From Morinoia aosen (lineage: Eukaryota; Arthropoda; Malacostraca; Amphipoda; Talitridae), in the NCBI GenBank assembly GCA_030386875.1, contig CM059567.1:51692020-51756019 (forward strand): 64,000 nucleotides of DNA, read 5' to 3'. The notes below the pieces were generated by a model. It did no database searches, had not been told where the DNA came from, and worked only from the letters and a program-made list of their open reading frames with translations. A program made the translations under genes and the position numbers. Shown here in pieces: positions 1 to 48,715 of this stretch (position 1 is its first letter; each line of letters starts with the position of its first letter).

Positions 1-897
1 CAGATATAGTTTTTACAGCCAAGCTTACAAGCCATGGCGTCACATGGATATTAAAATGGCAGACACAATTCCAACAATCTTACAAGCCACGGCCTCACCT
101 GGATATTGCAATACCGGACACAATTATATTCTTGTAAGCCACGGCCTCACCTGGATATCGCAATACTGGACAAAATTACATTCTTGCAAGCCACTGCCTC
201 GCCTAGATATCGCGATAGCGGACACAATTACATTCTTGCAAGCCACGGCCTCACCTGGATATCGCAATACCGGACAAAATTACATTCTTGCAAGCCACTG
301 CCTCACCTAGATATCGCGATAGCGGACACAATTACATTCTTGCAAGCCACGGCCTCACCTGGATATCGCAATACCGGACACAATTACATTCTTGCAAGCC
401 ACGGCCTCACCTGGAAATCGCAATAGCGGACACAATTACATTCTTGCAAGCCACGGCCTCACCTGGATATCGCAATACCGGACACAATTACATTCTTGCA
501 AGCCACGGCCTCACCTGGAAATCGCAATAGCGGACACAATTACATTCTTGCAAGCCACGGCCTCACCTGGAAATCGCAATAGCGGACACAATTACATTCT
601 TGCAAGCCACGGCCTCACCTGGATATTGCAATACCGGACACAATTACATTCTTGCAAGCCACGGCCTCACCTGGAAATCGCAATAGCGGACACAATTACA
701 TTCTTGCAAGCCACTGCCTCACCTGGATATCGCAATACCGGACAAAATTACATTCTTGCAAGCCACTGCCTCACCTGGATATCGCGATAGCGGACACAAT
801 TACATTCTTGCAAGCCACTGTCTCACCTGGATATCGCAATACCGGACACAATTACATTCTTGCAAGCCACGGCCTCACCTGGAAATCGCAATAGCGG
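1..897. repeat. 52-bp tandem array containing the exon-8 5' splice site (about 17 copies)
   Basis: On the minus (gene-sense) strand each unit is TCCGCTATTGCGATTTCCAG, the last 20 bases of exon 8, then 32 intronic bases starting GTGAGGCCGTGG. Steps of 52 place the CAG|GTGAGG junction at about plus positions 873, 821, 769 and so on down to 41. The copy at about 197 has GC in place of GT, and the one at about 41 has lost the junction. Two main variants alternate irregularly (ggaaatcgcaatagc, identical to the exon copy; and ggatatcgcaatacc), which suggests exchange between units. The edge at 1-60 is degenerate and may not be the true end. Confidence 0.97.
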
Positions 898-1060
898 ACT
901 TCTGCTGGACGCGCTCGGCTGCGGTGATCTCCGGCATGCGGGCGGGGTGCGGAGGAGGGTTCGTGTGCAGCAGCCCCACCAGTGTCTCCAGCCCTCCTTC
1001 TGCTGCCACGGCCGCTGCGCCTTCTTTGCTGCTGCACAGGCTGCACACCACTGTCGCGAT
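879..1060 (-). CDS. insc: Inscuteable homologue, exon 8 (Armadillo repeats; gene continues past the window)
   Basis: The exon is bounded by gtggctgtcag|ATC and TTTCCAG|GTGAGG and is 182 bp (60 codons + 2). It encodes IATVVCSLCSSKEGAAAVAA, EGGLETLVGLLHTNPPPHPA and RMPEITAAERVQQKSAIAIS. The GGLETLVGLL and ERVQQKSAIAISR blocks match late Armadillo repeats of the family. It ends in phase 2, so at least one more coding exon must lie beyond base 1. Reading through the donor meets TGA at once (AGG TGA), so intron retention or use of any later donor copy would truncate the protein. The last 20 exon bases are part of the 52-bp array. Confidence 0.87.
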
Positions 1061-3083
1061 CTGACAGCCACAGAAGGAGGAACTCGTTAAATTCGGTTGA
1101 GCGGGTTGAAAGTGTTCACATCATAAATGACCGTTGAGACAAGCAATGGAAACGTGTAAAAACGTTGGTATTTGAACGCATATGAAAAAATTTAACGTAT
1201 CAGTGGTTACGTAAATCAAAAACTGAGTGCGCCTACGGTAATATCGACTCATATTTAGACAAATAATTTCCGCCTCTGTACAATAATGATGATACAATTA
1301 ATTGAGAGTCCATGACCTCGTCATCTGGCTAACGCAGAAAATTGCCAGCATATCATGCCCTCAACCTTCGCCAGTGAAAAAGGGTTATTTTCGCTAACTA
1401 CGAGGATGCAACAAATCAAATCGATATTTTCAGGACGTACCAAAAAGTTTTCAACTACGTCTTCTGTTCATTTGAGTGATTCCACCTGACATTTCTCCAA
1501 TAAAAAATTAAATGACATTAATTACTTGCACAACCATCAGTTCATTCTGTTTATTTCGATGAGATTAGATAAGTTGATTAAAATCACCGTAACTACAACA
1601 AATATGTTCTAAAGAGAGAAAGGAGGAAGGCGTTATTTGATGTGGTGTTTGGGGAGCAGGAAACAAATGCACAATGTGTGTTACACAAACGATCGCTTGC
1701 AAATGGATACAGTAAGTTGAGATAAAAGTTTATGGAACAAGATCAAAGTTAAAAATAAAGTCAAACAGGCTGAAGAAACGATCGCAATGAACCAGAAAAG
1801 ATAGACCGTAATAAAGTAACACAAAATCTATTCTATTCAGCAAAAAATGGCCTACCTAACTTTCAGCACTGGGCCTCACATCTTCTCCCAGCGAACAACA
1901 ATTCCCATATCTATTTCACTAAAGCAGTCCATATGCATGTATTACATTTCAAACTAACTCACAAAAATCACGAGGTTCATTGAAAGGCTTTAAAACCTTT
2001 ATAACAATAAATTATATCTTCTCAAAAATATTGAGTATAAAATTCTCGAGCGCAGCAGCGAGAGAAGAGAATCCCTGCTTGATCAAGGTCAAGAGCATCA
2101 TTAGAATGACGACCATGTAATCAAATAGAAATTTGAAATAATTCTTGCAAAAGCACTGACCCTGACACTTCGATTAGCAAAACTGACCTCATAAAAAACG
2201 AAGAGTCGTGCGTAATAAATAACAAAGCGATAATTCAGGGCTAATTCATACTCTATTGCAGACATTGCGCTCGTAATTCTCAATCGTCCAGATCGATCAA
2301 AAGAAAATGTGCACTAGAGTGCAGCGCTCTTCAATGAAATATGAAACATTTCGTAGTGGTTACGTCAGAAACGATTCGCTGACTTCAGCTCCAGCACTTC
2401 ATATATCAGAAATTTGAGATTAATTCAGAGAAGTGAGGTAGCTCCAAAATCTTAAACCAGCATTGTAAGCCTTATAGTTGATGTAGTTGTGTTTCATCTA
2501 TGTGATTAATGCGGGCGTGTTGTATAATTCTACGTATGTGCGGCACATTAGCCGAGTAGCTGCGTGGCATGTCGAAGGGAAGAATGAGTAGCTGAATGTG
2601 AATTCATTCGGAGATGAATTAATCTTTTTTTGCTTCTTCTCTACATCGCGCAACTCACGATTTTGAAATAAATGGCGCGGAAAGAGCGAGTTTTTAGTTT
2701 TCTCACTCCCGAGGCTTCGGCAACATGCAGGAACACAAAAGCGACTCGCCTTCACTACCAGTCACTCATGGACGCATCTTTGTTGGTCTCGAGAAATCAA
2801 ATATAAACTCTAGTCGATAAGTCAATGTGCCGACATTATTATTCATTCGGTTACCAAAACCAGAAAAAAAGACAAGTTGCCGTATGGTCCGGAGGTGGAG
2901 TTGTGCTATGTTATACTAACCCGGAAAATAAAAAAGAAGTTTCAACTCCAAGTAACCGAACTAATGCTTCCAAATCAGCGAAGGGGGTTCTACTCTCACG
3001 CAACTGAAGCACATGTTATCAACATCCAGATCTTGGCGAGCGAAACGCCTCACACAGGGATTTCCTTGCGAATAAAATAACAA
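1061..3083. other. Intron 7 body
   Basis: This is intronic DNA between exons 7 and 8. Apart from one decayed copy of the dispersed element (1560-1915), I see no conserved reading frame or RNA gene. Confidence 0.6.
1560..1915 (+). repeat. Dispersed element of about 370 bp, decayed copy
   Basis: The copy shows the ordered family landmarks: gattagataagtt at the start, ggaggaaggc, a hairpin-prone cacaatgtgtgttacaca segment, gtttatggaacaagat, gcctacctaactttcag and ggcctcacatcttctccca. Orientation is given relative to the clearest copy at 15166-15537. Confidence 0.7.
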
Positions 3084-3268
3084 TATTCCGTTGAAAAACT
3101 CAGCGTTGAGCCTTGCTTGCACGGTAGGGGGCGGCCAAGAAATTAGGTTCTATCGAAAAACTCAGCGTTGAGCCTTGCTTGCACGGTAGAGGGCGGACAA
3201 AATATAACGAGTTTCCGTTAAAAAATTCAGTATTGAGCCTCGCTTACACGGTCGGGGCGGCCAAAAAG
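3084..3268. repeat. About 65-bp tandem repeat beside the exon-7 donor (3 copies)
   Basis: Units begin near 3084, 3155 and 3220 and share actcagcgttgagccttgct followed by tgcacggta and gggcggcca. The copy nearest the exon is the most diverged and ends about 10 bases from the exon-7 5' splice site. Confidence 0.9.
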
Positions 3269-3277
3269 GTGTCCCAC

Positions 3278-3456
3278 CTGATCTTTAGTGAAGACAGACA
3301 GGCCGTTGGGGGAGTGGGCTGCCCTCAGCAGGACGGAGGGCGTGCCAGCGGCCAGCATAGCCGCCACGAGGCCCTCCGTGGACAGGAAGGTGAGGTTCGC
3401 CAGCGCTGCGCTCCCCAACAGGAAAATCTCTGCAGATTCGGTCGTCTGGACGAGAC
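3278..3456 (-). CDS. insc: Inscuteable homologue, exon 7 (Armadillo repeats)
   Basis: The exon is bounded by cttgcatcag|GTCTCG and GATCAG|GTGGGA and is 179 bp (2 + 59 codons). It encodes LVQTTESAEIFLLGSAALAN, then LTFLSTEGLVAAMLAAGTPS and VLLRAAHSPNGLSVFTKDQ. The ESAEIFLLGSAALANLTF block is a standard Armadillo/Inscuteable repeat. Both its junctions carry tandem repeats: a 15-bp array forms the pyrimidine tract upstream, and a 65-bp array starts about 10 bases after the donor. Confidence 0.88.
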
Positions 3457-3463
3457 CTGATGC

Positions 3464-4016
3464 AAGAAATGAAAAGCAAAGAAATTAAAAGCAAAGAAAT
3501 TAAAAGCAAAGAAATGAAAAGCAAAGAAATGAAAAGCAAAGAAATGAAAAGCAAAGAAATGAAAAGCAAAGAAATGAAAAGCAAAGAAATGAAAAGCAAA
3601 GAAATGAAAAGCAAAGAAATGAAAAGCAAAGAAATGAAAAGCAAAGAAATGAAAAGCAAAGAAATGAAAAGCAAAGAAATGAAAAGCAAAGAAATGAAAA
3701 GCAAAGAAATGAAAAGCAAGGAAATGAAAAGCAAGGAAATGAAAAGCAAAGAAATGAAAAGCAAAGAAATGAAAAGCAAGGAAATGAAAAGCAAGGAAAT
3801 GAAAAGCAAGGAAATGAAAAGCAAGGAAATGAAAAGCAAGAAAATGAAAAGCAAGGAAATGAAAAGCAAAGAAATGAAAAGCAAGGAAATGATAAGCATG
3901 GAAATGAAAAGCAAGGGAATGAAAAGCTAGGAAATGAAAAGCAAGGAAATGATAAGCAAGGCAATGATAAGCAAAGAAATGATACGTAAGGAAATAAAAA
4001 GCAAAAAATATGAAAA
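3464..4016. repeat. 15-bp tandem array forming the exon-7 acceptor pyrimidine tract (about 37 copies)
   Basis: The plus-strand unit is gaaatgaaaagcaaa. In gene sense it is TTTGCTTTTCATTTC, which runs to within a few bases of the acceptor tgcatcag|GTCTCG. The sense strand therefore has a pyrimidine-rich region of about 550 nt. No AG occurs in sense (no CT on plus) from the acceptor to about 3926. Long open frames across it (MKSKE or FLCFS repeats) follow from the stop-free 15-bp unit and are not evidence of protein. Confidence 0.97.
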
Positions 4017-4796
4017 GCTAGTTTTTATTTGGCGCTTACTCGTTCCAAGAATGCGTTCTAATTTTCGAATTGAAGAAAAATTTTTTAAGTTTCATCAAAC
4101 TGCAGTAACTGCTCTTATTTTAAGTATTAAATACAAATTCGATGATAAAAGTATGCATTTGTTAGTACAATAAAAATTGCTTTCACGAAATTGAACGAAT
4201 ATGTCATTAATTTAAAATAGTAAGAGTGTGAAGTACCTACAGCGTACGTACAAATTTATGTTCTCGGTTCAATGTTTTCAAAATGCAAGATTAGAAACAC
4301 GAATTCGTCAGTTGATTGGCTTGGGAAAGAGTTCTTGAGTTCTTCTTGATTCCAATGGTTTCAATATGGTGGTTTCTATCAGTGTGTTTGGAGCATCCAT
4401 TTTCATGATGACGTCTATTACTTGATGCCAAAAGGGTTCTGTGTGACGCCCAGTAGTTTGCACTCCAGCAAGTCTTCATTCTACACTTTAAATTAGTCAG
4501 GCTAGCGTTCACGCTAAGCTAAACAAAAAATTTCATTCTTGGTTTAAATTGGTAAATCCATTGGTAGAAAAAAATAGACCAAAGTTCATAAATATCTCGA
4601 CATCGTCAATAGACTTCTGGAATACAGTATAAGCAGTGAAGTACTGGCATTGATTTCATGTGAATTTTTTATTTTAGTTGAGAAAGCCAAAGAAACAACG
4701 CAACTACCGTGTTTATCGTACTACTTGGTATGACGATGAGGCGACGATGCACATAAGGTTGATTGCACCATCAGATTTGCAGAATAGATATCTGTT
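4017..4796. other. Intron 6 remainder
   Basis: AT-rich intronic DNA between the 15-bp and 21-bp arrays. Nothing recognisable was seen. Confidence 0.6.
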
Positions 4797-4936
4797 AGGG
4801 CAGTGACGCTACCAGTGAGGGCAGTGACGCTACCAGTGAGGGCAGTGACGCTACCAGTGAGGGCAGTGACGCTACCTGTGAGGGCAGTGACGCTACCAGT
4901 GAGGGCAGTGACGCTACCTGTGAGGGCAGTGACGAC
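4797..4936. repeat. 21-bp tandem array containing the exon-6 5' splice site
   Basis: The plus unit is gctacc(a/t)gtgagggcagtgac. In gene sense it is GTCACTGCCCTCAC(A/T)G|GTAGC, that is, the exon-6 end plus its donor. About six complete units are present. In sense order the first and third carry CAG|GT and the others CTG|GT. Translation of retained units is GSVTALT repeated without stops, preserving the frame into exon 7. Confidence 0.96.
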
Positions 4937-5089
4937 TGGCGCGACGTGTCTGGCGAGGCTGACGATGCCGTGGTTCTCCTCGACCCAAGGAGACGTGATC
5001 TGCGCTAGAACTGCTGCAGCTTCGCTCTTCTCCTCTTCAGGGCTGCTCTCGTCGCACAAGATCTCGACTATCACCTCCATGCCGCCTGC
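4918..5089 (-). CDS. insc: Inscuteable homologue, exon 6 (Armadillo repeats)
   Basis: The exon is bounded by gggctgcag|GCA and CTCACAG|GTAGCG and is 172 bp (57 codons + 1). It encodes AGGMEVIVEILCDESSPEEE, then KSEAAAVLAQITSPWVEENH and GIVSLARHVAPVVTALT. The LCDES-PEEEKSEAAAVLAQITSPW block is the most recognisable part of the gene and is characteristic of Inscuteable. The exon end lies inside a 21-bp tandem array. The first of about six equivalent donors was chosen because its CAG|GTAG is the best and the next exon then continues the conserved reading frame (TALT-G-LVQTTESAEIF). Because 21 is a multiple of three and no copy contains a stop, use of a later donor would add seven residues per copy. 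Confidence 0.88.
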
Positions 5090-5625
5090 CTGCAGCCCAG
5101 CGAGATACAAACGCCAACGTGAGACAAAAATCTTCGCTTCAATAATTCTTTTCGAATTGCTGGTCAGCGTGCACACCAAAACGTATCCATCATTTAAGGA
5201 CATGAATATTGTAGAAAATCCAAGCGCAAAACATGATCGCGAATATTTCGATTCGAGTTCAGTCAGCGGATGTTGGCAGAAAAACTTGCTAACCTATTAA
5301 TTTGTAATCCAGAAACATTTCCATTATTTCATGATTAGATCAATTATATCGACTAAAGAAGAATTTTTCATTTTATTAACGAATTTTACATCATTCGTGT
5401 CGTCGCACACAAAGTCGTAAGAACTCCTAGTCTGATTGAAGCCTTCCCCATGAAAAAACTTAAATCCTAACGAACTGTAATGAACATGAATTCCGGATGA
5501 AAAAGATAGGCATGACTTTGTTAACTTATCGTAAACGTAGCTAAAAACAGCGCACAAATATTTCCTCAAAGGGAGCAATGAAAATCCCACACCGTCAAGT
5601 GAGCCTAATAAGTGCATCCTCGTAC
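5090..5625. other. Intron 5
   Basis: A 536-base intron between exons 5 and 6. No repeat or conserved frame seen. It is one of the few introns of the gene without a junctional array. Confidence 0.7.
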
Positions 5626-5868
5626 CTTCTCTAGGTGCGCGATGCCGTCAGCCACACAGCAGACCGTAGCCAGGGCGCGGAGAGCAGCCACCCGGAGTGC
5701 ACGGGCGCCAGGCTCGACACACAGAGCCAGCAGGGCCCGCACGCCCCCCAACTTCGCGATGAGGCGGCAGATGTGCCCCCCGTCCACCCCTAGCGACGTG
5801 ACCTGACGCAAGGCGCTCCTCACGCTCTCTTCTGAAGAGCAGTCTCGTTCCAGGCAAGCTATCACTTC
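5626..5868 (-). CDS. insc: Inscuteable homologue, exon 5 (Armadillo repeats)
   Basis: The exon is 243 bp, 81 codons, phase 0 at both ends. It encodes EVIACLERDCSSEESVRSAL, then RQVTSLGVDGGHICRLIAKLGGVRALLALC and ALRVAALRALATVCCVADGIAHLEK. The GGVRALLALC and LRVAALRALATVC blocks are typical Armadillo helices 2-3. The family uses this superhelix to dock Par3/Bazooka-type partners. The acceptor gtctcgtgcgcag|GAA was chosen because it keeps phase 0 with exon 4. A second possible acceptor at ctattctag|CG (exon from 5906) would be in phase 2 and would not fit. The donor is AAG|GTACGA. Confidence 0.87.
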
Positions 5869-6269
5869 CTGCGCACGAGACCAGGCTGCTTTTGAGGGAT
5901 ACACCGCTAGAATAGAGGATGAACCAATAAATAGATAAAGGATAAAACAATACATGCTATACATGTATTGGTTCCCACGGAATTATGTCAAAAAAGTTCT
6001 AGCGCAAATGAGTAGAAAATGGGTACACATGGAGATGTAGGCAGCGGCCTGAAACGGTATAAGAAGGAAATTAAGCCTTTAGTATGACAAAGTACGGTAA
6101 CAACTATTGGAGCTAGCGGACTTTACCAAGTAATGGATTAACCAAGAGACTTCAGTGTTTACTTTACAAGCGATGCTCCGATAAGAACACAAACTCTAAG
6201 CCCGTGGTAAGACACACCAAGATCATCATTGACCCAAAATAATTAATCCCTGAGGGTTGCTCATCTCAC
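5869..6269. other. Intron 4
   Basis: A 401-base intron between exons 4 and 5. It holds a short palindrome at 5948-5970 (caatacatg, 5-base loop, catgtattg) about 80-100 bases upstream of the exon-5 acceptor. No other element seen. Confidence 0.7.
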
Positions 6270-6995
6270 CTTAATTTCAAGGCTGAGCAAAATATCGACG
6301 AGTTTAGTGAAGGCGTGACCGAGTGCCGTGACCACCTGGGCGGCTTCCTTCACGCAGCTGGCGGCGCGGCCTCTGCCGGCGCTGCTGCCTCCGTCAGGCG
6401 CCTCCACTGCAGCGCGTGGAGCTGACTTGGCATCTTGTGGCGCGTCCTCAGCACTACGCTGTGTTAGTGTGGTGCCTTGTGATGGTAATTCTGAATTTGC
6501 CTTAGCGTTACTATGCGTGAGTGTGGTGTCTTGGGGTGGTAATTCTGAATTTGCTTCAGTGTTACACTGCGTCAATGTGCCACCTTGGGGGGATTGTTCT
6601 GGAGTAGCTTCAGTGTTACATTGTGTTTGAGTGACACCTTGGGGTGATTGTTCTTGTTTGCCAAGAGATACTCTAGCATCTTCAGAGTTACATAACGTTA
6701 TTTTCACACCTGGTCTGTTCTCGTTTCCACATGTTATACATTTCTGTTCGAAATTTTCGTTACTAATTGAAGAAAATTTTTTATTTTCTTCATAATATTC
6801 AGATTCTTTTCTGGAATCTGTTGAAGACTCGAACATTTTTTGTGTGTTTGTTGCATGTATTCGGTCGTCATCATTTGTACATGAATGATATTCGGACAAA
6901 TCAGGCGTAACAAAGTCGTTTGATTTTGTGGTTGTGATTTCCATTAAACGGTGACAAATTTGTCGAATTACTTCTATTTGCCGACATAGTGTGGA
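6270..6995 (-). CDS. insc: Inscuteable homologue, exon 4 (helical ends, variable repeat-bearing middle)
   Basis: The exon is bounded by ttttttcag|TCC and AAG|GTGAGA and is 726 bp, 242 codons, phase 0 at both ends. It starts STLCRQIEVIRQICHRLMEI and ends AAQVVTALGHAFTKLVDILLSLEIK. Both ends are helical and resemble the start of the Inscuteable Armadillo region. Between them lie about 190 residues of polar, Asp/Ser/Thr/Gln-rich sequence with an imperfect 18-residue repeat (6441-6640) and an Ala/Gly-rich stretch. The middle looks like an expanded disordered loop between two conserved blocks. The open frame continues into the intron on the 5' side, so the exon start was set by the acceptor and its pyrimidine tract. 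Confidence 0.82.
6441..6640 (-). repeat. Coding 54-bp (18-residue) repeat in exon 4
   Basis: Four imperfect units in frame: TQTQCNTEATPEQSPQG, GTLTQCNTEANSELPPQD, TTLTHSNAKANSELPSQG and TTLTQRSAED. Units keep the 18-codon register while residues vary, as expected for a disordered spacer that expands and contracts. Confidence 0.88.
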
Positions 6996-7021
6996 CTGAA
7001 AAAAGATAAAAATTAACAATT

Positions 7022-7196
7022 ATGAACAAAAATACGTGGGGGAAAGAACAAAAATGCATCGAGTAAAGAACAAATATATATCGAGTAAAGAACAAAATTC
7101 ATCGCGCAAAAAAAAAATATCTATCGTTCAAAGAACAAAAATACATGGAGCAAAGATTAAAATACAAAAAAAAACAACAAAAATCTATCGAGTCAA
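7022..7196. repeat. About 22-bp tandem repeat upstream of the exon-4 acceptor
   Basis: About eight diverged units of the form aaagaacaaaaatgcatcgagt. In gene sense they are T-rich and start about 26 bases upstream of the exon-4 acceptor, covering the expected branch-point region. Confidence 0.82.
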
Positions 7197-7213
7197 GAAG
7201 AAAAAATTCAAAT

Positions 7214-7540
7214 TAGATTGTAAGATAACAAGTTAGTTTAGAACTCTCTCACAATAAAATGTGGTCCCGTGAGAGGAAAAGGGAAGGCACCATATAGAAT
7301 AAAATTAAGAGTAAAGGGAATCTATACACAAGGTGTTACCACACAGGATTCCTTGCGCGTAGAAAGAGCAAGACAAAAAAAAGTTTATGAAAAAAAGGTA
7401 AAAGTTAAGGAAGAAAGTTATAAGTGCGTTAAAAAAAAGCAGAGAACCGAAAAAAATTTATAACAAAAAAAAATTCCATTTCATCAAAAGGATGGTCAAC
7501 CTAACTTTTACCTCGGGACCTTTAGCATCAATCTTCTAAC
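7214..7540 (+). repeat. Dispersed element of about 370 bp, decayed copy in intron 3
   Basis: Shows aacaagttagttta, gggaaggcacca, caaggtgttaccacacagga, agtttatgaaa, agagaaccgaaaaa, tcaacctaacttttacctcggg in family order, with many A-run expansions. The remainder of the intron (7541-8044) shows nothing recognisable. Confidence 0.72.
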
Positions 7541-8044
7541 TAGCGTACCTACTCAGTCAAAAAAATAACTCAAAATTCATTCGTGAAAACCTCTATGATT
7601 AAATATATGATGACGTCTGTTTTCTTCCTTCAATTTTTTTCTCTTTGAGATAACTTTAGAATCCATTTCATCAAATGAAAACCTTGAAATTCAAAAGCGA
7701 ATATGGGTTGTCATTACTTAAAACTTGGGCATTCACTTTACAGGATGTTGGTGTAGACAGCGAGACCAATCAAACCAGCAAAAAACTTCGCATCATTAAT
7801 CTGAAGATTTCGAAACCTTCAACTTTTAAACATTTATGGTTCACTTTTACAAATAGCCTCAGTATATCGTATTTCTTGTTGAATTTGTTCCCTAGCGTGT
7901 TCTTTGGAATTCACAGCCGAGTGGCAGCTCCTTCCTCATTCTAATGTCGGTCACTACCTGAATCCAGCGCCAGTCTAATGATTGTGGTTATAGTAACTGA
8001 AATATGAGTGGAAAAATGCTGACGTTAAAGGATTAAAGGCGCAC

Positions 8045-8162
8045 CTTAGGGCCTGCCGCTCCTGCCGACGGCCCCGAAGGCTCCCTGAGGAAGGCGTTGA
8101 CGTGTGCCACAAGCGACCGCGACAGGGCTGGGAGGCGCTCGTGCTGACGCAGCTCTAGGCGT
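8045..8162 (-). CDS. insc: Inscuteable homologue, exon 3
   Basis: The exon is bounded by attcctccag|A and AAG|GTGCGC and is 118 bp. It encodes RLELRQHERLPALSRSLVAHVNAFL followed by a Gly/Ala/Pro-rich tail ending GPK, so it is helical then linker-like. It begins one base into a codon and ends in phase 0, matching exons 2 and 4. The donor is weaker than the others because +4 to +6 (CGC) do not fit the consensus. A 40-bp tandem repeat lies just upstream of its acceptor (8202-8378). Confidence 0.82.
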
Positions 8163-8201
8163 CTGGAGGAATTTAAGTGAAGGAAACATCGAGCATAAGT
8201 C

Positions 8202-8378
8202 TAAATAATTACAATACTGAAGAAAATGCACAGCAAACGTCAAAATTATTACAATATCAAAGGAAATGCTCAGCAAACGTCAAAATTATGACAATAGCAA
8301 AGAAAATGCACAGCAAACGTCAAAATTATGACAATATTAATTAAAGGAAATACACTGCATGTGTCAAAATTATATTAG
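8202..8378. repeat. 40-bp tandem repeat upstream of the exon-3 acceptor (about 4.4 copies)
   Basis: Units at 8202, 8242, 8282 and 8322 share gcacagcaaacgtcaaaatt and a following tacaata segment. The array begins about 40 bases upstream of the exon-3 acceptor, in the branch-point zone. The fourth unit carries a 4-base insertion. Confidence 0.92.
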
Positions 8379-9041
8379 AATAAAACGTTTTACATCTTAC
8401 TACTCCATACTTACTGCTTTGTTGACTAGATGATTCGTACGCAATAACTAGTGGAAACCAAATTCAAACAAGAACTTCTAAATGATGATCCCAGAGACCT
8501 AAACACGATTAATCAAATAATTTGAACAATTTACATAACTGGTAAACCGCAAATTCATACCTTGTCTATTTTTTTCCTTGAAGGTTGAAAAATATGAACA
8601 AAACCATAAAAGTGTTTTGTTCTTCAATAATTTTTACAAACGCATGTCTACGAATTTCATGAAATTCTACGTGTTTTATTTATATAACAAGTAACAAAAT
8701 TTTCATTAAATATCCAACATTATTTGAGCCATGTAGGTTCGGTGACACGATATCCTTTCTGAAATACCTTTTTCCATCGCATATGCGCAATACTTGTTTT
8801 GCTGCTCTCCTATCATACTGGGTAAACAGATTACCCATAAAGGCTCAAAATTCTGAATTTGATTATTTTAAAAAGTCAAAACTGTAATATCAAGAAGCCA
8901 AATTTTTAAATAGTAACAAGAAAAAAAGTCTGGACAGAAAATATTCTATTCTACCAATACTGATTTAGCCCTATATAAGTCAAATTTCAATAATTCTGGC
9001 CAGAAAATCTTGCAATCTATCAAAAGAGATGCTGTACTCAC
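8379..9041. other. Intron 2 remainder
   Basis: AT-rich intronic DNA with no recognisable element. Confidence 0.6.
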
Positions 9042-9227
9042 TGGCAGAGCCTGGCGAACTCTGTGGAGACCGCATGCGCCCTCCTCTGGACGCTCCTGAC
9101 GGCGTCCACGGCGGAGAGAGGGTCAGCGTGAGGCTCGGTAGCGAGGCTCTTGCTCTGGAGGGTGTTCATGCACTCTGTCTCCGCCCTGCCCCGCACCTCC
9201 TGCAGCCACTGGCTCAGCGACCCGTTC
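9042..9227 (-). CDS. insc: Inscuteable homologue, exon 2 (Pins/LGN-binding segment)
   Basis: The exon is bounded by cgccag|G and CA|GTGAGT and is 186 bp (1 + 61 codons + 2). It encodes NGSLSQWLQEVRGRAETECMNTLQSK and continues to STEFARLC. The pattern of a short amphipathic helix (SLSQWLQEV) followed by TECMxxLQSK is the hallmark of the Inscuteable segment that lies along the TPR superhelix of Pins/LGN. This interaction brings the spindle-orientation machinery to the Par complex at the apical cortex. The exon joins exon 3 through a split Gln codon (CA|A). GC content is clearly higher than in the flanking introns, as for all exons of this gene. Confidence 0.88.
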
Positions 9228-9735
9228 CTGGCGGCGGGACACCGACACAGTTAACATCATTTTACAGTAACACAGGAAAGTTAAAGGCCAATCGATCAAA
9301 CGTCTGATAAAACATCGTTAAGTGTGTCGCGTATGGGTGGATGGTGAGGTACACTATTGAAGTCGACTCGAAAAGTAGAACAGCTCAGTAGAGGTCAAGA
9401 TTTTGAGAGAACAAGAAATAATCGTCAGGAAATCGAATAAAAGTAGATATGTTGTTTTGGTCGAAAGGTCATGGCATGGTGAAAACTTGCCTTCTTTCAA
9501 ATTCGATACTACAACATTTTGAGAGATCACTGAGCATGCCAACAAAACCATTCCTCGGATAGTAAACACAATCTTTTTACGCATATTAATGAAGCTATTA
9601 ATCATTTGAGATGATTCTCCAACTTATTCGCATCTGTATTGAATCCAAAGTTCAGCATGAGTCATCTAATTATTTCAATATATTGCTCACGTTCGTGTTT
9701 CGTAATTGCTGATTCTCAAAGTTCAAAAATTTTAT

Positions 9736-9975
9736 CCCCCTGAGAGGAATAAGTTCATGAAACAAGATAAAAGTTCAAGAAATAAAATAACAGTTGCTGA
9801 AAAACAGGACAGCAGTAAAAACAGGACAGAAAGACTTCCGGTAGAAAACAAAAAATTATTTTATATCAACATAAGAAAGGCCTACCTATCAATAAGCTCA
9901 GGACCTCACATTTTCTCTCAAGGATTGCTAATTCCCCCCAAAGACACAATAGTCGTATCTCTCTGAAGGGTTTGT
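9736..9975 (+). repeat. Dispersed element, 5'-truncated copy in intron 1
   Basis: Retains gttcatgaaacaagataaaa, gctgaaaaacaggacagcag, aaggcctaccta, ggacctcacattttctc and the terminal cacaatagtcgtatc hairpin region; the first third is missing. Confidence 0.8.
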
Positions 9976-12375
9976 GTATTAATTACGTAGACCATTTTAA
10001 ACACATTTAAGCAATCGATCTCTGCGCTATATAGTGCAAGAAGGCATGCAGGAGACTTCACACAGCCAGACAAGCATCTTGCGGCGCTCGACACGCGGGG
10101 GGTCCTGGGTTTTATTTCTTAGGATCCTGAGGCTGTGCCGAAATTCAAAGAAAAACGCGCAATACAAACGATGGAAAAGCTAGTCATGAAATCGTGACGG
10201 GAGGTGAGGGAAATAGCTTTCATTGCAGTCACATTAATAAACCGGAATCGGCGGTAGAAACTTTTTGATAATCAGTTTATGAGAGGCATTTCTGAGGATC
10301 AGTGTAACCCATATGTTATTCAGTCGTAACCACTTTTCTATATTAGTCGTATTCTAAAAAATGTGTGAATATTCGGTCGAAAAATCAATATCTTGCTGAA
10401 GGAAGATTTGGTAATAATTTTTTACAGATTATATCACTGATATAAATTATATCATTAAACAAACTAGAAATCCTAACAGCGTATGAAAAAAATTGTCTCA
10501 CGACGCAGAAAAATCTTAAGTTATACACACTAGTTTAATGCCTACAATGCAAATTGATGTTTTCGACGTAAGCATTCCGTTTAAGACAACGAACGTTATG
10601 CTCGCTTGTTCCACACCTCGGACCATCAGTATGGTTTCAGTAGGAAACTTGTAGTGCAATTTGTTACTCACATCTGATACGGCAGTAATGCAAGCGTTGC
10701 AGTTGCCTAACATTACGAAGCTTACAACTGTGTTGACATACAAAGTTGAGGTCACGTTCTACAGCTCGAAGCAGCGGTCATTTTTCTCACTTGGAATAAA
10801 GTTTTCTGACAACACATTTGATGACCGGTCGCTGCAGCCTCGAGCACAATTTCGGTCCGGCATTGCGTGGCATTGCGCTATTTCTCGACGAAGAAGAGCA
10901 AGGTCGACTTCAACCTAAAGCAGATGACGTTTCGAGATTGGAAAGACGCGTTCCATATCTCGAAGGCCTGAACATAAACACGCTAGAAATAAATTCGCAG
11001 CCATCATTCAGCCTTATCTAAATAATGTATTTGTAGCCCTCGATGCATGCTATTGCTCATTTAAATTCGTGATTTTCAACGCACTAAAGATAGCGATTCT
11101 TTCTTAGTTGAATTTTTATTCTGTGGATTCCAACATTTTCAGCCTGTCTTTTAAAATAGAATTTTGCATGTAAAAAATCGCTAGCACTGTCATGCTTCCA
11201 GTGAAACATTTTCATTTCGTTTAACAAGAATTGCAGTTCAACAGTTGCGACAGAATGTCCGGTAAGAAGTATCGTTAAACAAGTCGTTTTCGCATAAAAG
11301 GTCGAGTACACGATCGAAGCCTACTTAAAATGCAGAACAAGCTGAGGTGGTCACGACTTTGACGCACCAAATTAAAGATGACATGGATTCAGGGACGTAG
11401 GTACTCCTACATTAAAATTTTTTAGCTTCTCTGCCAATTGCTTCATAGGTTCAACTTTGAGAAACACGTTGTTGCATGTTACATTTATAATAACTGCATT
11501 CATTATTTGACGGTAAGATGATAAACAAATTAAGCATAAAAATACGCTCTCACTAAACAGAGACGGGTAGGACTGAAGCCAGAAGTGCGATGCGGAACCA
11601 GCTCTCAGTGGACAGAATGTCGACCCCACAAATCTGCTGACACAGCCACTCTTATGAAGTGATGTTATTTGCTAAAAGGAGACTGATTTTTAGAATTTCT
11701 TCCTGGTCAGCTTTGGTGTTTTGGAGCACTGCTAATGCAATAGCTAGCTTGTTTACGAGCGTTGGTGGCAAACAGGAAATTTCAAGCAAGGCGAAAACCT
11801 CCGCATGAGCACGCTCCTGTACAAAGACCACGCCATCAACAGGAAGCCATAAAGAAACAAGTACACGAAAAATAGGAGAAATGTCGGTGGAAACTGGATA
11901 GAGTGCAGCTACGGGCGTGAATTTTCGGAGTAGGTATTTTCTATTTATTAAATACGAGAGAAAAAAGGCCGATATTTAAGCAAATGCATAGAAGTACACA
12001 AATGTACGAAAAGGAGCACAATTTTCAAATTTCAAACGAAAAGCTTTAGAACGACGCGTGCTCCGGCATCTCCTGATCGAAAAGCATCCCAAGAGAGAAG
12101 TCCATCAAATCGTGCTCCAGTCAAATCACGATGTCAGATAAAACTCATAGGACGAATCAAGTAAGGACAACTGAGTCTAGCAGAGTCACGACTCACAGTC
12201 GACATCACGATTCACTCATCCTTGGCTGCTCAATGATTTCACGAGCCTCTGGCAGAAATGACCAGAGCAGGGCTGTCAAGCACGAGAGACCATTCGATTA
12301 CTGTTCTAGTGCAGGCCACTTTAAAATGGGAGTCTGACAGCTGAAAAAATTTGTATTTTGGGAATGAAATTGTAT
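9976..12375. other. Intron 1, unassigned stretch
   Basis: AT-rich DNA with short fortuitous frames only. No conserved protein, RNA gene or array was recognised. Confidence 0.5.
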
Positions 12376-13579: not shown

Positions 13580-14235
13580 TGGTTCTAACCACTATAAATA
13601 AACAATAACCGTAATAAATAAACAACAACCGTAATAAATAAATGACAACCGTAATAAAAAACAACAACCAAAATAAATAAAAAATAACATCAATGAATGA
13701 ATAATGCCCTCAAGAAATAAACAATAACCACAGAAAATAAACAATAACACAGTAGATACAAAATAACCACAGTATATTCAAAATAACCACAGTAGATACA
13801 AAATAACCACAGTAGATACAAAATAACCACAGTAGATACAAAATAACCACAGTAGATACAAAATAACCACAGTAGATACAAAATAACCACAGTAAATACA
13901 AAATAACCACAGTGGATACAAAATAACCACAGTAGATACAAAATAACCACAGTAGATACAAAATAACCACAGTAAATACAAAATAACCACAGTGGATACA
14001 AAATAACCACAGTAGATACAAAATAACCACAGTAGATACAAAATAACCACAGTAGATACAAAATAACCACAGTAGATACAAAATAACCACAGTAGATACA
14101 AAATAACCACAGTAGATACAAAATAACCACAGTAGATACAAAATAACCACAGTAGATACAAAATAACCTTTAGTAGATAAACAATAACCACAGTAAATGA
14201 ACCCCAATAAATGAACAACACGCATCCAATTCCTC
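13580..14235. repeat. Composite minisatellite in intron 1: 21-bp then 20-bp units
   Basis: From 13580 to about 13690 there are about five units of the form aataaacaacaaccgtaata. From about 13740 to 14180 there are over 20 nearly perfect units of aaataaccacagtagataca. The long frames across it (YCGYFVSTVVIL repeats) are by-products of a 20-bp period without stops on one strand. Confidence 0.96.
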
Positions 14236-32600: not shown

Positions 32601-35600
32601 CATGCGCTTTTCGTGTCGAAACAGTGCCGCAGAAGTTGGAACGTGGGGTCACACTATCAAAAGTAATCCAAATATTTCAAACCCCACGAGGGTGCGTACA
32701 AATATGCTATTGGATGTGATTAAGCACAGAAGTAAATGAAATTGAAGTTCAATACCACGTAACTACAGAAATGCAATCAAATACTTTGTGGTGATTTTAC
32801 GACTTCGCATGCATGCACTTCGGCACGAATACCATGCAATCAAAAGGTTCGTTAGTCCTTTCTTTGAAGACACTGCGATTCATAACCCAGTGTAGCAGGC
32901 GTTATTTTCAGGCACTTTCTGCCGACAACGCTCACTGCTTTGCATTTCAAAGAGCTGAGAAGACGATAAAGTTCAAATCGTTAAAACTGAAGTGTTCTAA
33001 GCAGGACCTGCAGCAAGTATACTAGCTGGTGTATTTGCCTGTAGACAATTTTTCTTTCTCACACTAAGTACTGAAGTTGCGAGCAGCAATTTAGTCGTCG
33101 GAAATTTGGAAATTAAGGAGAGCTTCTACCTGAAAGTTGAAGCAGGTTTGGAGTTACCCATTATTTATAGCCAACTCTCCACTGCAGTCACTCAACCATG
33201 CCAGTTTACGCTCCCCAATGCAGTCACCCGCTTCAGTCTCCCAATGCATCAAGTGGGACAGCCTGGTTGGTCTTGTATCTGAAGGTTTGATTACGCTTGA
33301 AAGACTTCATTGCGCAGATGAGATTCATGTTCTTCGAAAAAAATTCTCGAGGGATGCTACCGTCGTGCTTTTTCTGCACATTTGTGTCCATTGATGCGTT
33401 GAGTGAGGCAGAGCGATGCGGTCCAAAAAACAAGGACCCCCTCTGGAGCCAAGGCATAGCAAGGTGATCTAATTGAATGCTAGTGACAAATAACTACCCG
33501 GAGAACTGAGCTAAAATATAAACCAGCTAAGCGCGAGCATCTCACTGTAATATTTCATTACTTAACCAAAAATAAACTAGCGATAGGGAAATCAAAAACG
33601 TCAGCCAGAAATGATGTCACTGAAATTTTGGACTGAAATATTTAAAATTTACATAAGTTTAAAATTCCCCCAACACAAATGAACTGGAAAAAACGACTTA
33701 AAACCTATGCCAAACTAGTATTCAGGGTAATGCTACAGAATAAGCAATTACTTGAGACATGATAGTCCGGGAAAACCAGTTGCAAAGAAGTTTTCAACTG
33801 GAAACGAATAAAATACTGTCTTGTAATAAATGCGGAAATAATTTTGAGCAAATATTTGTTTTTCATACATCGCGCAAAGAATAGTTTCGCCCTCATATCG
33901 GCAGACATCGTTTGTAGAATAGTTGCTTACTACCTTCTTCAGTAGATAAAAATTACTAGAAAAAGATGGCAGCTGCAAAAGAAAACTGAATGCAACAGAC
34001 ATGCAAGAACATGGAACGCAACAGGCAAACCAGGCCCAATGCTAGACCCAATAACACAATCTTTTAAGCCTTCATTACATTGGAACAGCAGCGCAATTCA
34101 CTACACATGGATCTATTGACATTAAACAACGTTAGAATACTGGCCTGCTCCAGCTGGCAGATCAATTTATAAAGTTACCGACTAAAAAGAAGTGCCCACA
34201 TGATTATATTTGCTTATAAGGTAGCAAAAAAAAGTTAATGCGCTCATCGTCCTGCAACTGAAAATGTTAACTAATTCTTGTTTTGAGAAGTCACCTATGA
34301 CCATGGTTTTCAAAGAAAGAATCTGTAGCAGCGTGGGTCTGCTTCATTCGCTCTGAGTTTTGCACGTCCCCAGCAGAGTAAGTGGACTAGTAACACTGGA
34401 GAAAATTGATGATCAGTGAGATTGAAGCAAGATGTTCTTAGATATCTTTGTGTATTAGGAAAGAATATGACTTAGTGAGAGCTTGGATTGATCACAATTT
34501 GAAAAAAAGGGAAATAGCCAATAAGAATGTAGGCTTCTTGACGCTCGATGACGAAGGGGGATCAATTCTTGTACACCCAATTAGGGCAAGCAAATATGGG
34601 AATATTGAGAATAAAAAAAATTAAAGATAAACCAACGTACAATAGCTAAAATTAGATAATTGAAAAAAAATTACATAACAAAATGGAAGAAGACTGAAGG
34701 AAATCAAACTTCTTCTCTTGTGGCAGGATTTTACATATAGAATGCAAAACAGCAATGAACATCGTGAGTAATTGACGTCTGTTTGTCCAATTCTTGGCAT
34801 TCCAATGACCCCACGGAACGCAGCTGCTGCCACACATGGCAAAGTTGTAGGGCTTGAGATTTATTCTTCCTGATGTTCATATTTACTTGACTCTCACGTA
34901 CGACTATACTGTGGACACGTGTACTATAAAATATTGGTCATATTTTGTAATCTTTCGTAACATGGGTACTACATTTGGACATTTTCCTTTATATTTTGGA
35001 TAATTGTTAGCAATTTTATTTAAAGGAAAGTCTCGCAAGTTTTGGTTATACCTTGTAATCTTTCGTAACATGGGTACTACATTTGGACATTTTCCTCTAT
35101 ATTTTGGATAATTGTGAGCAATTTTATTTGAAGAAGTGATACAGCATCACGGGTTTTTCTTAGTTTTCTTACTACACTATTCATGGTATCTGCATTGTGT
35201 CATCCAGGGTGATTGGCGTGTATCTGTTCGAGGGAAAGCATTCAAAAAGTATTCAAAAACAACTTTTACTAGGCAATTTTAAGTTAATTTGCGATTCAAA
35301 CGTTGTTCTTACATTTTTAGCTCACGCTCAATTCAACAGGAGATTTAATTTGTTTTATTATCATTTTGAGAGATTCAACCCCTTCGAGATTTAACATTTA
35401 GCGTTAAAATTCCAGTATTCCAATTCGTGAAGGTTTAAATTAAAATATTTTGATTTTCAGAGATTTAAGCATCAATATTTCGATTTAAGGTCTCTACAAA
35501 ATTTAGTTTTGGTCGTTGAATTTTCTGTAAGAAGCTTTATATAAAATCATTCCGTACTTTTTGCATTTTAATACTTTCCCGCATTTCCTTCACATTTTTT

Positions 35601-39348: not shown

Positions 39349-40451
39349 TTCATTTCGGCGGCGAGTGCGGTGGGATGGATTCTGAGCCTCTTGACGTTAG
39401 TTTTTTTGGTGATCGCGCCTCCTAACGCACAGGGCTCTGTAAGGATGGGCTTGAGAGGAAGGTCTTGGTTAGGGTGGTCATGTTGCTGGTGTTCGCTGTC
39501 TCGACATTCACTCATAAATGACAGAGATAAAGGGCCACTGCCTTGAGAGTGTGAGTGTTTAACGTCCACAGTCGACCACCGACGACGGGCTTTCAATATA
39601 CACGGGCGTCTTGGTTTGGGATCGTCTAGTAATTTATCGGCGCTCGTGGAACGGCGAGGGCCTTTTCTGTGACAGCTTACATAAGAGGCTTTCCTAATGG
39701 CTCCTGTCTTCCTGCTGGCTTGCTCGTCGTACGAGTTAGATGATATTTCAAGTAAACTCTTGCATTCCATCTCGTATTGAGGTTCGTCTGAATCACAAAT
39801 AGAGGTTGGACTCGATCGCAAGCTGCTCTCCGCGTCTGGAGTGTCAGTCGGACCGTTTCGTAGCAATTGTGTTCGACTTTGGAGGCTCTTGGCTCCATTA
39901 CTAGATATTCGAGGCGTGATTGGTAGGGACATTGGCCCGCTTGCCACAATTGTGTCTGAATACAAGCGGGCTCTTCCTGAACCTGAACTGCCACCGAAAA
40001 ACACGCGTGAAATATGCTTCACTCGGGGAGCAAATTCTTCTGCGTCTATTTCCGGTGACCCGCCGCAGTTAGATTCGCCAGAATCGGAGTATCCTGAATC
40101 TTGGGATCCTCTGAGAGAACCCCCAACTGAGCTCCTGAGGGAACCGACTGGAGACCGAATTGCGCAGCTCGTAGGAGAACTAGCTTCATCTCCAGAGCTC
40201 GAGGCTTCGTTAGCTTCTTTGCACGTGCCCAAAGCAGGGCCCCAAGGAGGGGCTTCTACTGTCAGGCTCTTTTCTTTGTGGTTCCCGAACATGGTTGTGG
40301 TCTGCGCTGCTGGCTCGTGGGAGGGAATTCCCGATGAGAGTTTGGGGAGCGAGGGATCCTCTGACGCATAAAAGACCTTTGAACGGCCCCGCTTGAAGGC
40401 GGCCGACAGGGGAGAGGGAGAAGTGCGACTCTTCAGCGTCATCGTCGCGTC
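39349..40451 (-). CDS. insc: Inscuteable homologue, coding exon 1 (Ser-rich N-terminal region)
   Basis: Coding starts at the ATG at 40442-40440, which has A at -3. The frame stays open for 364 codons and ends in a good donor (AA|GTGAGT, phase 2). A 3' splice site (gaattttcag) at 40452-40453 shows that at least one upstream, probably non-coding, exon exists. The product is low-complexity and Ser/Pro/Arg-rich, with SQDSGYSDSGES near residues 113-124, basic stretches near 262-290 (RRSTSADK, KARRRWSTVDV) and a basic end (VKRLRIHPTALAAEMK). The link to the Inscuteable exons 30 kb away rests on same strand, exact phase match (AA+G = Lys, giving ALAAEMK-NGSLSQWLQE) and the fact that insect Inscuteable proteins carry a long N-terminal region before the Pins-binding segment. 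I do not recognise a folded domain here. An alternative is an exon of another minus-strand gene, which I consider less likely. Confidence 0.72.
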
Positions 40452-44510: not shown

Positions 44511-44975
44511 GGGTACAATGTTCATGCTTGTGGTAGAAAAATTTTTCGAAAACTTCGATGCATATCAAAATTTTACTCAAAATTGTTGCAACGAAAGTAT
44601 TTGTAAGTACATGCACCAAAAACAAGAGAAATAAATTATAGAAAGGAAAGAGAACACTGAAATTGGTATTTACTGGTTCAGATAACTTAAAAAATGCTCT
44701 CAAATCAAGAAGACTGGAGCTCTATTCGCAACTCAATATATGAATGCCTTAAGATTTATATTTTTTTTTTAAAAGTAAGTATGTTTTATTATGTCAATTT
44801 TTATTGTTTCAACTATACGGGAAAATCACCGTTTCTAGTTAGATCTGAAGCCATTCAAATAATGATATACCGGAGGTACTATATAAGTGTGCAGTTATTA
44901 AATATTGTCGGCGTTAATATCCTGCAAAGTCATCCTTTCTGTGACTTTAGCAAACACATCACAGCCGAAACATCC

Positions 44976-45430
44976 AAGCAGAAGCATCCAAGCACACACA
45001 CACATCCCAGCAAGCACATCCTAGCACACACAAACACATCCCAGCAGATACACATCCCAACAGACACACATCCCAGCAGACACACATCCCGGCACACATA
45101 CATCCCGGCACACACACATCCCAGCACACACACATCCCAGCACACACACATCCCAGCACACACACATCCCAGCACACACACATCCCAGCACACACACATC
45201 CCAGCACACACACATCCCAGCACACACACATCCCAGCACACACACATCCCAGCACACACACATCCCAGCACACACACATCCCAGCACACACATCCCAGCA
45301 CATAATCATCCCAGCACACACACATCCCAGCACACAAACATCCAAGAACACACACAGCCCAGCACACACACATCTTAGCACACACACATCTTAGCACACA
45401 CATCCCAGCACACACACATCCCAAGAGACA
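44976..45430. repeat. 14-bp minisatellite (about 30 copies)
   Basis: Near-perfect units of cacacacatcccag, with variants at both edges (cacacaaacatc, cacacacatctt). The overlapping open frames on both strands (CVCWDVCVLG, HIPAHTHPST) result from the stop-free 14-bp period in every frame and are not treated as genes. Confidence 0.96.
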
Positions 45431-47399: not shown

Positions 47400-48715
47400 T
47401 CCACAGCTTGGCCAAAACATTCCAGTCACTGACACACCAACACAACACATTCCAGTCACTGACACACCAACACAACACATTCCAGTCACTGACACACCAA
47501 CACAACACATTCCAGTCACTGACACACAAACACAACACATTTCAAACACAGACACACAAACACAACACATTTCAAACACAGACACACCAACACAACATAT
47601 TTCAAACACAGACACACCAACACAACATATTTCAAACACAGACACACCAACACAATATATTTCAACACTGACACACCAACACGACATATTTCAAACACAG
47701 ACACACCAACACAACATATTTCAAACACAGACACACCAACACAACATATTTCAAACACAGACACACCAACACAACATATTTCAAACAGACACACCAACAC
47801 GACATATTTCAAACACAGACACACCAACACAACATATTTCAAACACAGACACACCAACACGACATATTTCAAACACAGACACACCAACACAACATATTTC
47901 AAACACAGACACACCAACACAACATATTTCAAACACAGACACACCAACACAACATATTTCAAACACAGACACACCAACACAACATATTTCAAACACAGAC
48001 ACACCAACACGACATATTTCAAACACAGACACACCAACACAACATATTTCAAACACAGACACACCAACACAACATATTTCAAACACAGACACACCAACAC
48101 AACATAATTCAAACACAGACACACCAACACAACATATTTAAAACACAGATACACCAACACAACATATTTCAAACACAGACACACCAACACAACATATTTC
48201 AAACACAGACACACCAACACGACATATTTCAAACACAGACACACCAACACAACATATTTCAAACACAGACACACCAACACAACATATTTCAAACACAGAC
48301 ACACCAACACAACATATTTCAAACACAGACACACCAACACGACATATTTCAAACACTGACACACCAACGCAACATATTTAAAACACTGACGCACCAACGC
48401 GACATATTTCAAACAAACACACCAACACAACATATTTCAAACACAGACACACCAACACAACATATTTCAAACACAGACACACCAACAAGACATATTTCAA
48501 ACAGACACACCAACACGACACATTCCAGTCACTGACACACCAACACAACACATTCCAGTCACTGATACACCAACACGACACATTCCAGTCAATCACACAC
48601 CAACACAACACATTCCAGTCACTGACACACCAACACGACATGTTCCAGTCAATCACACACCAACACAACACATTTCAGTCACTGACACACCAACACGACA
48701 CATTCCAGCAGCTCA
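47400..48715. repeat. 30-bp minisatellite (about 43 copies) with variant borders
   Basis: The core unit is cacaacatatttcaaacaca then gacacaccaa. At both borders (47425-47530 and 48505-48710) the unit has cattccagtcactg in place of atttcaaacacag. Older-looking units extend left to about 47340. A 2-base deletion near 47665 and a few shortened units (47785, 48410, 48495) break the frames. The predicted decapeptide repeats (TFQSLTHQHN or LKYVVLVCLC) are by-products of the 30-bp period. Confidence 0.96.

Follow-up and report, generated by a model that had tools for sequence, protein, structure and literature searches.

The inscuteable locus

To begin with, a window of 64,000 nt from the genome of the talitrid amphipod Morinoia aosen (GenBank assembly GCA_030386875.1, contig CM059567.1, positions 51,692,020 to 51,756,019 of the forward strand) was analysed. 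An ortholog of the arthropod gene inscuteable (Insc) lies on its minus strand, with the 5′ and middle portions of the gene inside the window, and tandem arrays are located on or close to six of the gene's splice junctions. Both features used to assign the protein to the Insc family were found, namely the Insc_C ARM-repeat domain (Pfam PF19427, E = 1.9e-57) and similarity along the protein. The best of 46 homologs was that of the amphipod Hyalella azteca (63% identity over 610 residues, 360-969), with decapods coming next, and seven arthropod Insc proteins picked from these 46 matches were aligned with the query, giving an alignment of eight sequences. The exon borders are those of a conceptual gene model, built from GT/AG sites, phases, reading frame and homolog alignment. 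Once joined, the eight exons presented GT/AG borders throughout, consistent phases and a single stop-free frame of 969 aa, and the alignment with the seven arthropod proteins backed the joins.

In particular, exon 1, the first of the coding exons located in this stretch (39349..40451, minus strand, as for the other exons and the arrays located among exons 2–8), showed an open frame, an acceptor TTTTCAG/GAC and a donor GAA/GTGAGT (the slash marks the exon border), and aligned to the Insc proteins of Hyalella and decapods. Exons 2 (9042..9227), 3 (8045..8162), 4 (6270..6995), 7 (3278..3456) and 8 (879..1060, ending at its exon-proximal donor) were placed by splice sites, phases and homolog alignment, while exon 5 (5626..5868), holding ARM repeats of Insc_C, was supported by the Pfam PF19427 match, splice sites and phases. 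Exon 6 (4918..5089) was likewise ended at its exon-proximal donor, the only one giving a gapless exon 6–7 join against the homologs. According to the comparison with Hyalella, exon 9 and later exons lie past the left end of the window. Intron 1 (9228-39348) is 30,121 nt long, compared to 401-2,217 nt for introns 2–7. Exons 2–8 reach G+C peaks of 66-74% (90-bp windows), and the region 1-10000 has an overall G+C content of ~38-44%. No structured RNA or tRNA was found in the window by Rfam at gathering scores or by ARAGORN with the bacterial code.

Tandem arrays at six splice junctions

Arrays were called with Tandem Repeats Finder (TRF), taking a score of at least 50 as the main threshold. Six non-coding arrays were found in positions 1-9227, each with a TRF score of at least 129, in addition to one coding array in exon 4. 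These six are the arrays that the initial annotation had located at six splice junctions of one gene, and its distance of 'within about 45 bases' proved correct, as the gaps between array edge and junction were 0 nt (exon-8 donor), 10 nt (exon-7 donor, inside intron 7), 7 nt (upstream of the exon-7 acceptor), 0 nt (exon-6 donor), 28 nt (upstream of the exon-4 acceptor) and 29 nt (upstream of the exon-3 acceptor). Thus, 6 of the 14 junctions of exons 2–8 had an array and 8 had none, and the two junctions of exon 1 were free of arrays. The unit sizes initially given agreed for five arrays, while the exon-7 donor unit was 62 bp long by TRF instead of 65 bp. The units, described as unrelated, were essentially so, since only one pair of seven consensus units, both of them T-rich, had any 8-mer in common. 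The assertion that every non-coding array among these exons touches a junction held loosely (≤30 nt) at a TRF score of at least 50. At a score of 30, the sole extra repeat outside the known arrays was a trivial one of 8 bp × 2 (4329-4344), away from junctions.

Two classes of arrays were distinguished: two that span the junction (exon-8 and exon-6 donors) and four that are wholly intronic, starting 7-29 nt off it. The former repeat the junction together with its splice signal, and the latter do not. The spanning arrays are here called mirage-type, after the mirages of amphioxus, minisatellite-like duplications of exon-intron boundaries (PMC3087553 and PMC3902484, as described in the accessible portions of both papers). 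A unit with exonic and intronic sequence across the boundary, as set by the conceptual model, was found in these two of the six arrays and in none of the other four, and AG/GT signals appeared in many, not all, copies of both. The internal identity of the spanning arrays under strict scoring was 95% and 99%, compared to 82-94% for the four intronic ones, a weak contrast because the array at the exon-7 acceptor reaches 94%.

The mirage-type array at the exon-8 donor (24..899; 52-bp unit, ~16.8 copies) was called by TRF with the same extent under four scoring schemes. Its unit comprises the last 21 nt of exon 8 and 31 nt of intron 8, opening with GTCCGCTATTGCGATTTCCAG (the 21 exonic nt, up to the junction), followed by GTGAGG and 25 further intronic nt. 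Translated, the exonic nucleotides give SAIAIS(R), of which at most two of seven residues differ from the seven aligned homologs, and CCAG/GTGAG is exact in 14 of the ~16.8 copies, resulting in 14 potential donors. The copy at the junction is identical across 52 nt to the intronic copies 5, 7, 8 and 10, as would be expected from recent duplication or homogenisation. Moreover, two sub-types of the 52-bp unit were observed within 24-899, TCCGCT...ATTTCCAG and TCCGGT...ATATCCAG, interspersed and often alternating, which hints at a higher-order dimer; only the first sub-type keeps the coding sense of exon 8.

The mirage-type array at the exon-6 donor (4797..4934; 21-bp unit, 6.6 copies, from TRF and rescoring) has a unit holding the last 17 nt of exon 6 and the donor. 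This unit carries the codons for VTALT, identical in Hyalella and with one or two of the five residues changed in the other six homologs. A total of six potential GT donors, all in frame, are present in the array, two as CAG/GT and four as CTG/GT. Both spanning units matched their own exon best, with 0 of 500 shuffled exons matching as well.

The donor consensus is MAG/GTRAGT, to which the exon-6 donor showed the weakest match of the eight (6/9) and that of exon 8 one of the best (8/9). As computed, all 13 listed downstream donors of exon 8 would lie behind an immediate TGA, and since they would bring a premature stop, only the exon-proximal donor is predicted to be productive. For exon 6, the five downstream donors would all keep the frame with no stop through exon 7, adding 7 to 35 residues, at 7 per unit.

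The four wholly intronic arrays, called by TRF, lie near the exon-7 donor (3086..3267; 62-bp unit, 2.9 copies), upstream of the exon-7 acceptor (3464..4018; 36.9 copies of a 15-bp polypyrimidine unit with the sense-strand sequence TGCTTTTCATTTCTT), upstream of the exon-4 acceptor (7024..7205; 22-bp T-rich unit, 8.4 copies) and upstream of the exon-3 acceptor (8192..8336; 40-bp unit, 3.6 copies). The second of them forms a polypyrimidine tract at exon 7, with the next AG found 470 nt above the acceptor. Relaxed scoring extended the exon-3 acceptor array to 8180-8373, and a shift of its edge to 8180 (85%) is plausible, while the extension of the exon-4 acceptor array to the junction by loose scoring was dropped, as it gave 67% identity over A-rich sequence. 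An exonic origin of these four arrays was rejected, since 294-500 of 500 shuffled exons matched their units as well as the real neighbouring exon did.

AG dinucleotides were far scarcer on the sense strand (minus) than on the plus strand in 3464-4018, 7024-7205, 8192-8336, 13586-14220, 44963-45423 and 47427-48704. The consensus units of the three acceptor-side arrays had no AG, for which random intronic units would have chances of 0.44, 0.31 and 0.12, and the mid-intron array 13586-14220 had 3 AG in 635 nt on the sense strand. A selective exclusion of AG from the acceptor-side arrays was discarded, since the arrays at 13586-14220, 44963 and 47427 are also AG-poor on that strand; the scarcity is common to mid-intron and further-upstream arrays and so is not specific to acceptors.

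In the window as a whole, 16 arrays had a TRF score of at least 50 (neighbouring rows merged), and tandem repeats accounted for 8.0% of the sequence. The coding array of exon 4 (6475..6646, TRF; 54-bp unit, 3.2 copies) is in frame, lies off the junctions and contains AGGT. It sits inside a low-complexity insertion of ~200 aa, which Hyalella has at the same position and which the remaining six proteins of the alignment lack (Oratosquilla having a shorter stretch). Large minisatellites were also observed upstream of the first coding exon found, at 47427-48704 (30 bp × 42.8) and 44963-45423 (16 bp × 26.9), as well as a 108-bp tandem duplication deep inside intron 1 (34934-35133; 1.9 copies, 93%).

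Placement of the arrays and its explanation

The placement of the six arrays was compared with chance in several ways, all of them post hoc and on one gene that had been picked because it showed the pattern. With a liberal null, in which arrays fell uniformly over the introns (overhang ≤21 nt), a distance of ≤30 nt for all six was never reached in 40,000 trials. The stricter controls gave far weaker figures. When each array was restricted to its own intron, five of them each had a 5-13% chance of lying at ≤30 nt. For the exon-8 array, located at the window edge (24-899), this chance was 100%, as the part of intron 8 inside the window is taken up almost entirely by the array and leaves it next to no freedom. 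When the junctions were shifted circularly, a control that preserves how the arrays cluster and whose counts include the unshifted case, the result was as good as observed in 52 of 9,227 cases at a limit of 45 nt, while no significance was found at 10 nt, where 1,470 of 9,227 shifts equalled the observed four of six arrays. With mirrored junctions, six arrays within 30 nt were obtained in 0 of 9,227 shifts. Furthermore, none of the four arrays of intron 1 was near a junction, their distances being 523, 4,358, 14,351 and 4,215 nt. Overall, the placement is locally unusual, with a joint probability of ~0.002-0.006 under conservative controls.

Ordinary turnover of minisatellites, in a crustacean genome rich in repeats, probably produced the set, with arrays at junctions being tolerated and two of them being of the mirage type. 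Tandem repeats make up 8.0% of this window and 6.18% of the genome of the amphipod Trinorchestia (PMC7062882, according to the accessible portion of the paper), so that intronic arrays are to be expected and ordinary turnover is placed before the other explanations. In this reading, the 3′ half of inscuteable carries an unusually dense set of independent minisatellites. At the exon-8 and exon-6 donors, a short segment straddling the border was probably duplicated in tandem, copying the last 21 (exon 8) or 17 (exon 6) coding bases and the donor into the intron. Slippage or unequal exchange would later have expanded it, as the structure of the arrays suggests. The other four would be expansions confined to the introns, close to a donor or preceding an acceptor. 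We infer that the proximal donors are used and that the arrays are neutral: they would be viable because the exon-proximal copy of the junction is intact, which allows normal splicing to continue. The closeness of all six arrays to junctions would probably result from local repeat richness, short introns and the choice of a conspicuous example, to which a modest true bias toward junctions may perhaps add.

Some results weigh against ordinary turnover. The own-intron null makes pure chance uncomfortable (Fisher p = 0.0054 for the six arrays and 0.0019 without the one at the window edge), only 22 of 9,227 circular shifts were as good as observed at 30 nt, and arrays are locally enriched, as 14% of the window holds 7 of the 16 (one of these 7 being coding; binomial p = 0.0045). 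Moreover, the donors presumed to be used are those of the gene model. A junction-focused mutational process would account for such figures if the junctions of this lineage were hot spots for tandem duplication that seed unrelated arrays, although we regard this as rather unlikely. The same doubt applies to the example of a route considered for it, in which R-loops or transcription-coupled breaks at the G+C step between exon and intron would be repaired with short duplications. It agrees with the location of all six non-coding arrays of exons 2–8 within 30 nt of a junction, with the two arrays that span the junction itself, with the compositional step between the exonic peaks and the surrounding region, and with the unrelated units, which would follow from a process that is not sequence-specific. 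However, it leaves the arrays of intron 1 (0/4 near a junction), the lack of significance at 10 nt and the off-junction coding array of exon 4 unexplained, four of the six arrays are wholly intronic with units that neither contain AGGT nor resemble an exon, and the gene was selected for the pattern. The AGGT-containing duplications that the initial annotation had put forward were rejected as a common cause, as AGGT is missing from four of the six non-coding units. On the sense strand, the exon-8 unit and the coding unit of exon 4 contain it, as do two copies of the exon-6 array (1 and 3; the consensus there has TGGT), and none of the four intronic units does. The exon-4 occurrence, despite lying off the junction, counts in favour of that proposal, but AGGT could explain the two spanning arrays at most. 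That splice junctions are preferred birthplaces of minisatellites here, with a non-sequence-specific process repeatedly seeding arrays at donors and acceptors, is a rather unlikely reading; if true, mirage-type arrays would be convergent and possibly widespread in repeat-rich animal genomes, and they would continually supply new splice sites and introns.

A coincidence brought out by the selection of the reader, in which a minisatellite-rich genome must yield such genes and the spanning pair represents two chance overlaps, is considered improbable. It is favoured by the tandem repeat coverage of the window (8%) and by the short introns 2–7, which leave little room off the junctions, as reflected by the own-intron chances, but the joint local probability given above speaks against it. 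Finally, selection for splicing appears very improbable, according to which the tandem donors of exons 6 and 8 and the expanded polypyrimidine tract at the exon-7 acceptor would be kept to regulate Insc splicing; a series of in-frame insertions within an ARM repeat, growing by 7 aa at each step, which would be part of it, is just as hard to credit. The six in-frame, stop-free donors of exon 6 would suit such selection, as would the T-rich, AG-poor character of the acceptor-side arrays, with 37 copies and a distant next AG at the exon-7 acceptor. Nevertheless, this AG scarcity extends to 13586-14220 and to arrays further upstream, all the downstream donors of exon 8 follow a premature stop, the high identity between copies suggests recent arrays, and amphioxus mirages are reported not to disturb the normal mRNA (PMC3087553 and PMC3902484, in their accessible portions).

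Relation to known systems

Judged by their sequence, the two spanning arrays are the same kind of structure as the mirages of amphioxus, so the view that no described system corresponds to the pattern did not hold (PMC3087553, PMC3902484). Here and below, published systems are described as they appear in the accessible portions of the cited papers. Mirages occur in Adh, globin, TnC and PGBD5 genes (PMC3087553, PMC3902484), in particular in Adh3, with units of 10-72 bp, and in the globins BflGb6 and BflGb9, with units of ~150-160 bp (PMC3087553), as well as in TnC and, as imperfect repeats, in PGBD5 (PMC3902484). Many of their copies carry AG/GT, their length is unstable and the regular mRNA is reportedly undisturbed (PMC3087553, PMC3902484). 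The arrays of Morinoia resemble them in that the units straddle the splice junction (52 and 21 bp, compared to 10-72 bp in Adh3), many copies keep AG/GT, the identity between copies is high and the normal exon end is retained, and the presence at several loci within one genome is a further trait in common. In contrast to amphioxus, the genome is that of a crustacean, and the mirage-type structure is confined to two of the six arrays; the remaining four are intronic and only near junctions. Moreover, the work on amphioxus covered length polymorphism, somatic instability and mRNA, while the present arrays are known from the sequence of one haplotype alone.

Among crustaceans and other arthropods, no boundary-spanning minisatellite was found announced in the open-licence literature searched, mostly without full texts. 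Tandem repeats of prawn lectin genes are located inside exon 2 and not at a junction (PMC7536079), the words splice, intron-exon and exon-intron are absent from the accessible text of a paper on Daphnia tandem repeats, which presents no junction case (PMC3152781), and neither does that of the Parhyale genome paper (PMC5111886). To our knowledge from this open-licence literature search, the two spanning arrays are the first mirage-type case seen in an arthropod. In human, the minisatellite of DDX3Y lies upstream of the gene and is no junction case either (PMC3039753).

Intron gain by tandem duplication of AGGT-containing segments (the Rogers model, reviewed in PMC3443670), together with cases of intron creation by tandem duplication in Drosophila (PMC2891723), offers a second comparison. 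As in that model, a segment with AG/GT was tandemly duplicated at the two spanning arrays. However, the duplication in the model supplies both the donor and the acceptor of a new intron, whereas only donors are multiplied here, beside an existing exon end. The exon-8 and exon-6 arrays carry donors, the acceptor of exon 9 lies outside the window, and the four remaining non-coding units have no AGGT.

A third comparison is with the variable internal tandem repeats that human segmental duplications carry at exon-intron boundaries (PMC2812944). These are likewise minisatellite expansions at such boundaries, able to create or shift splicing. They differ from the present case in belonging to primate paralogs in segmental duplications, for which the accessible text describes no cluster over several junctions of one gene. 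In the accessible literature, boundary-spanning minisatellites are thus on record for lancelets and, as a related form, for segmental duplications of primates. Should a crustacean have them as well, they would not be a cephalochordate oddity but a recurrent outcome of minisatellite-rich genomes. Given such recurrence, long-read genomes and RNA-seq could be used to test directly how tandem splice sites, and perhaps introns, originate.

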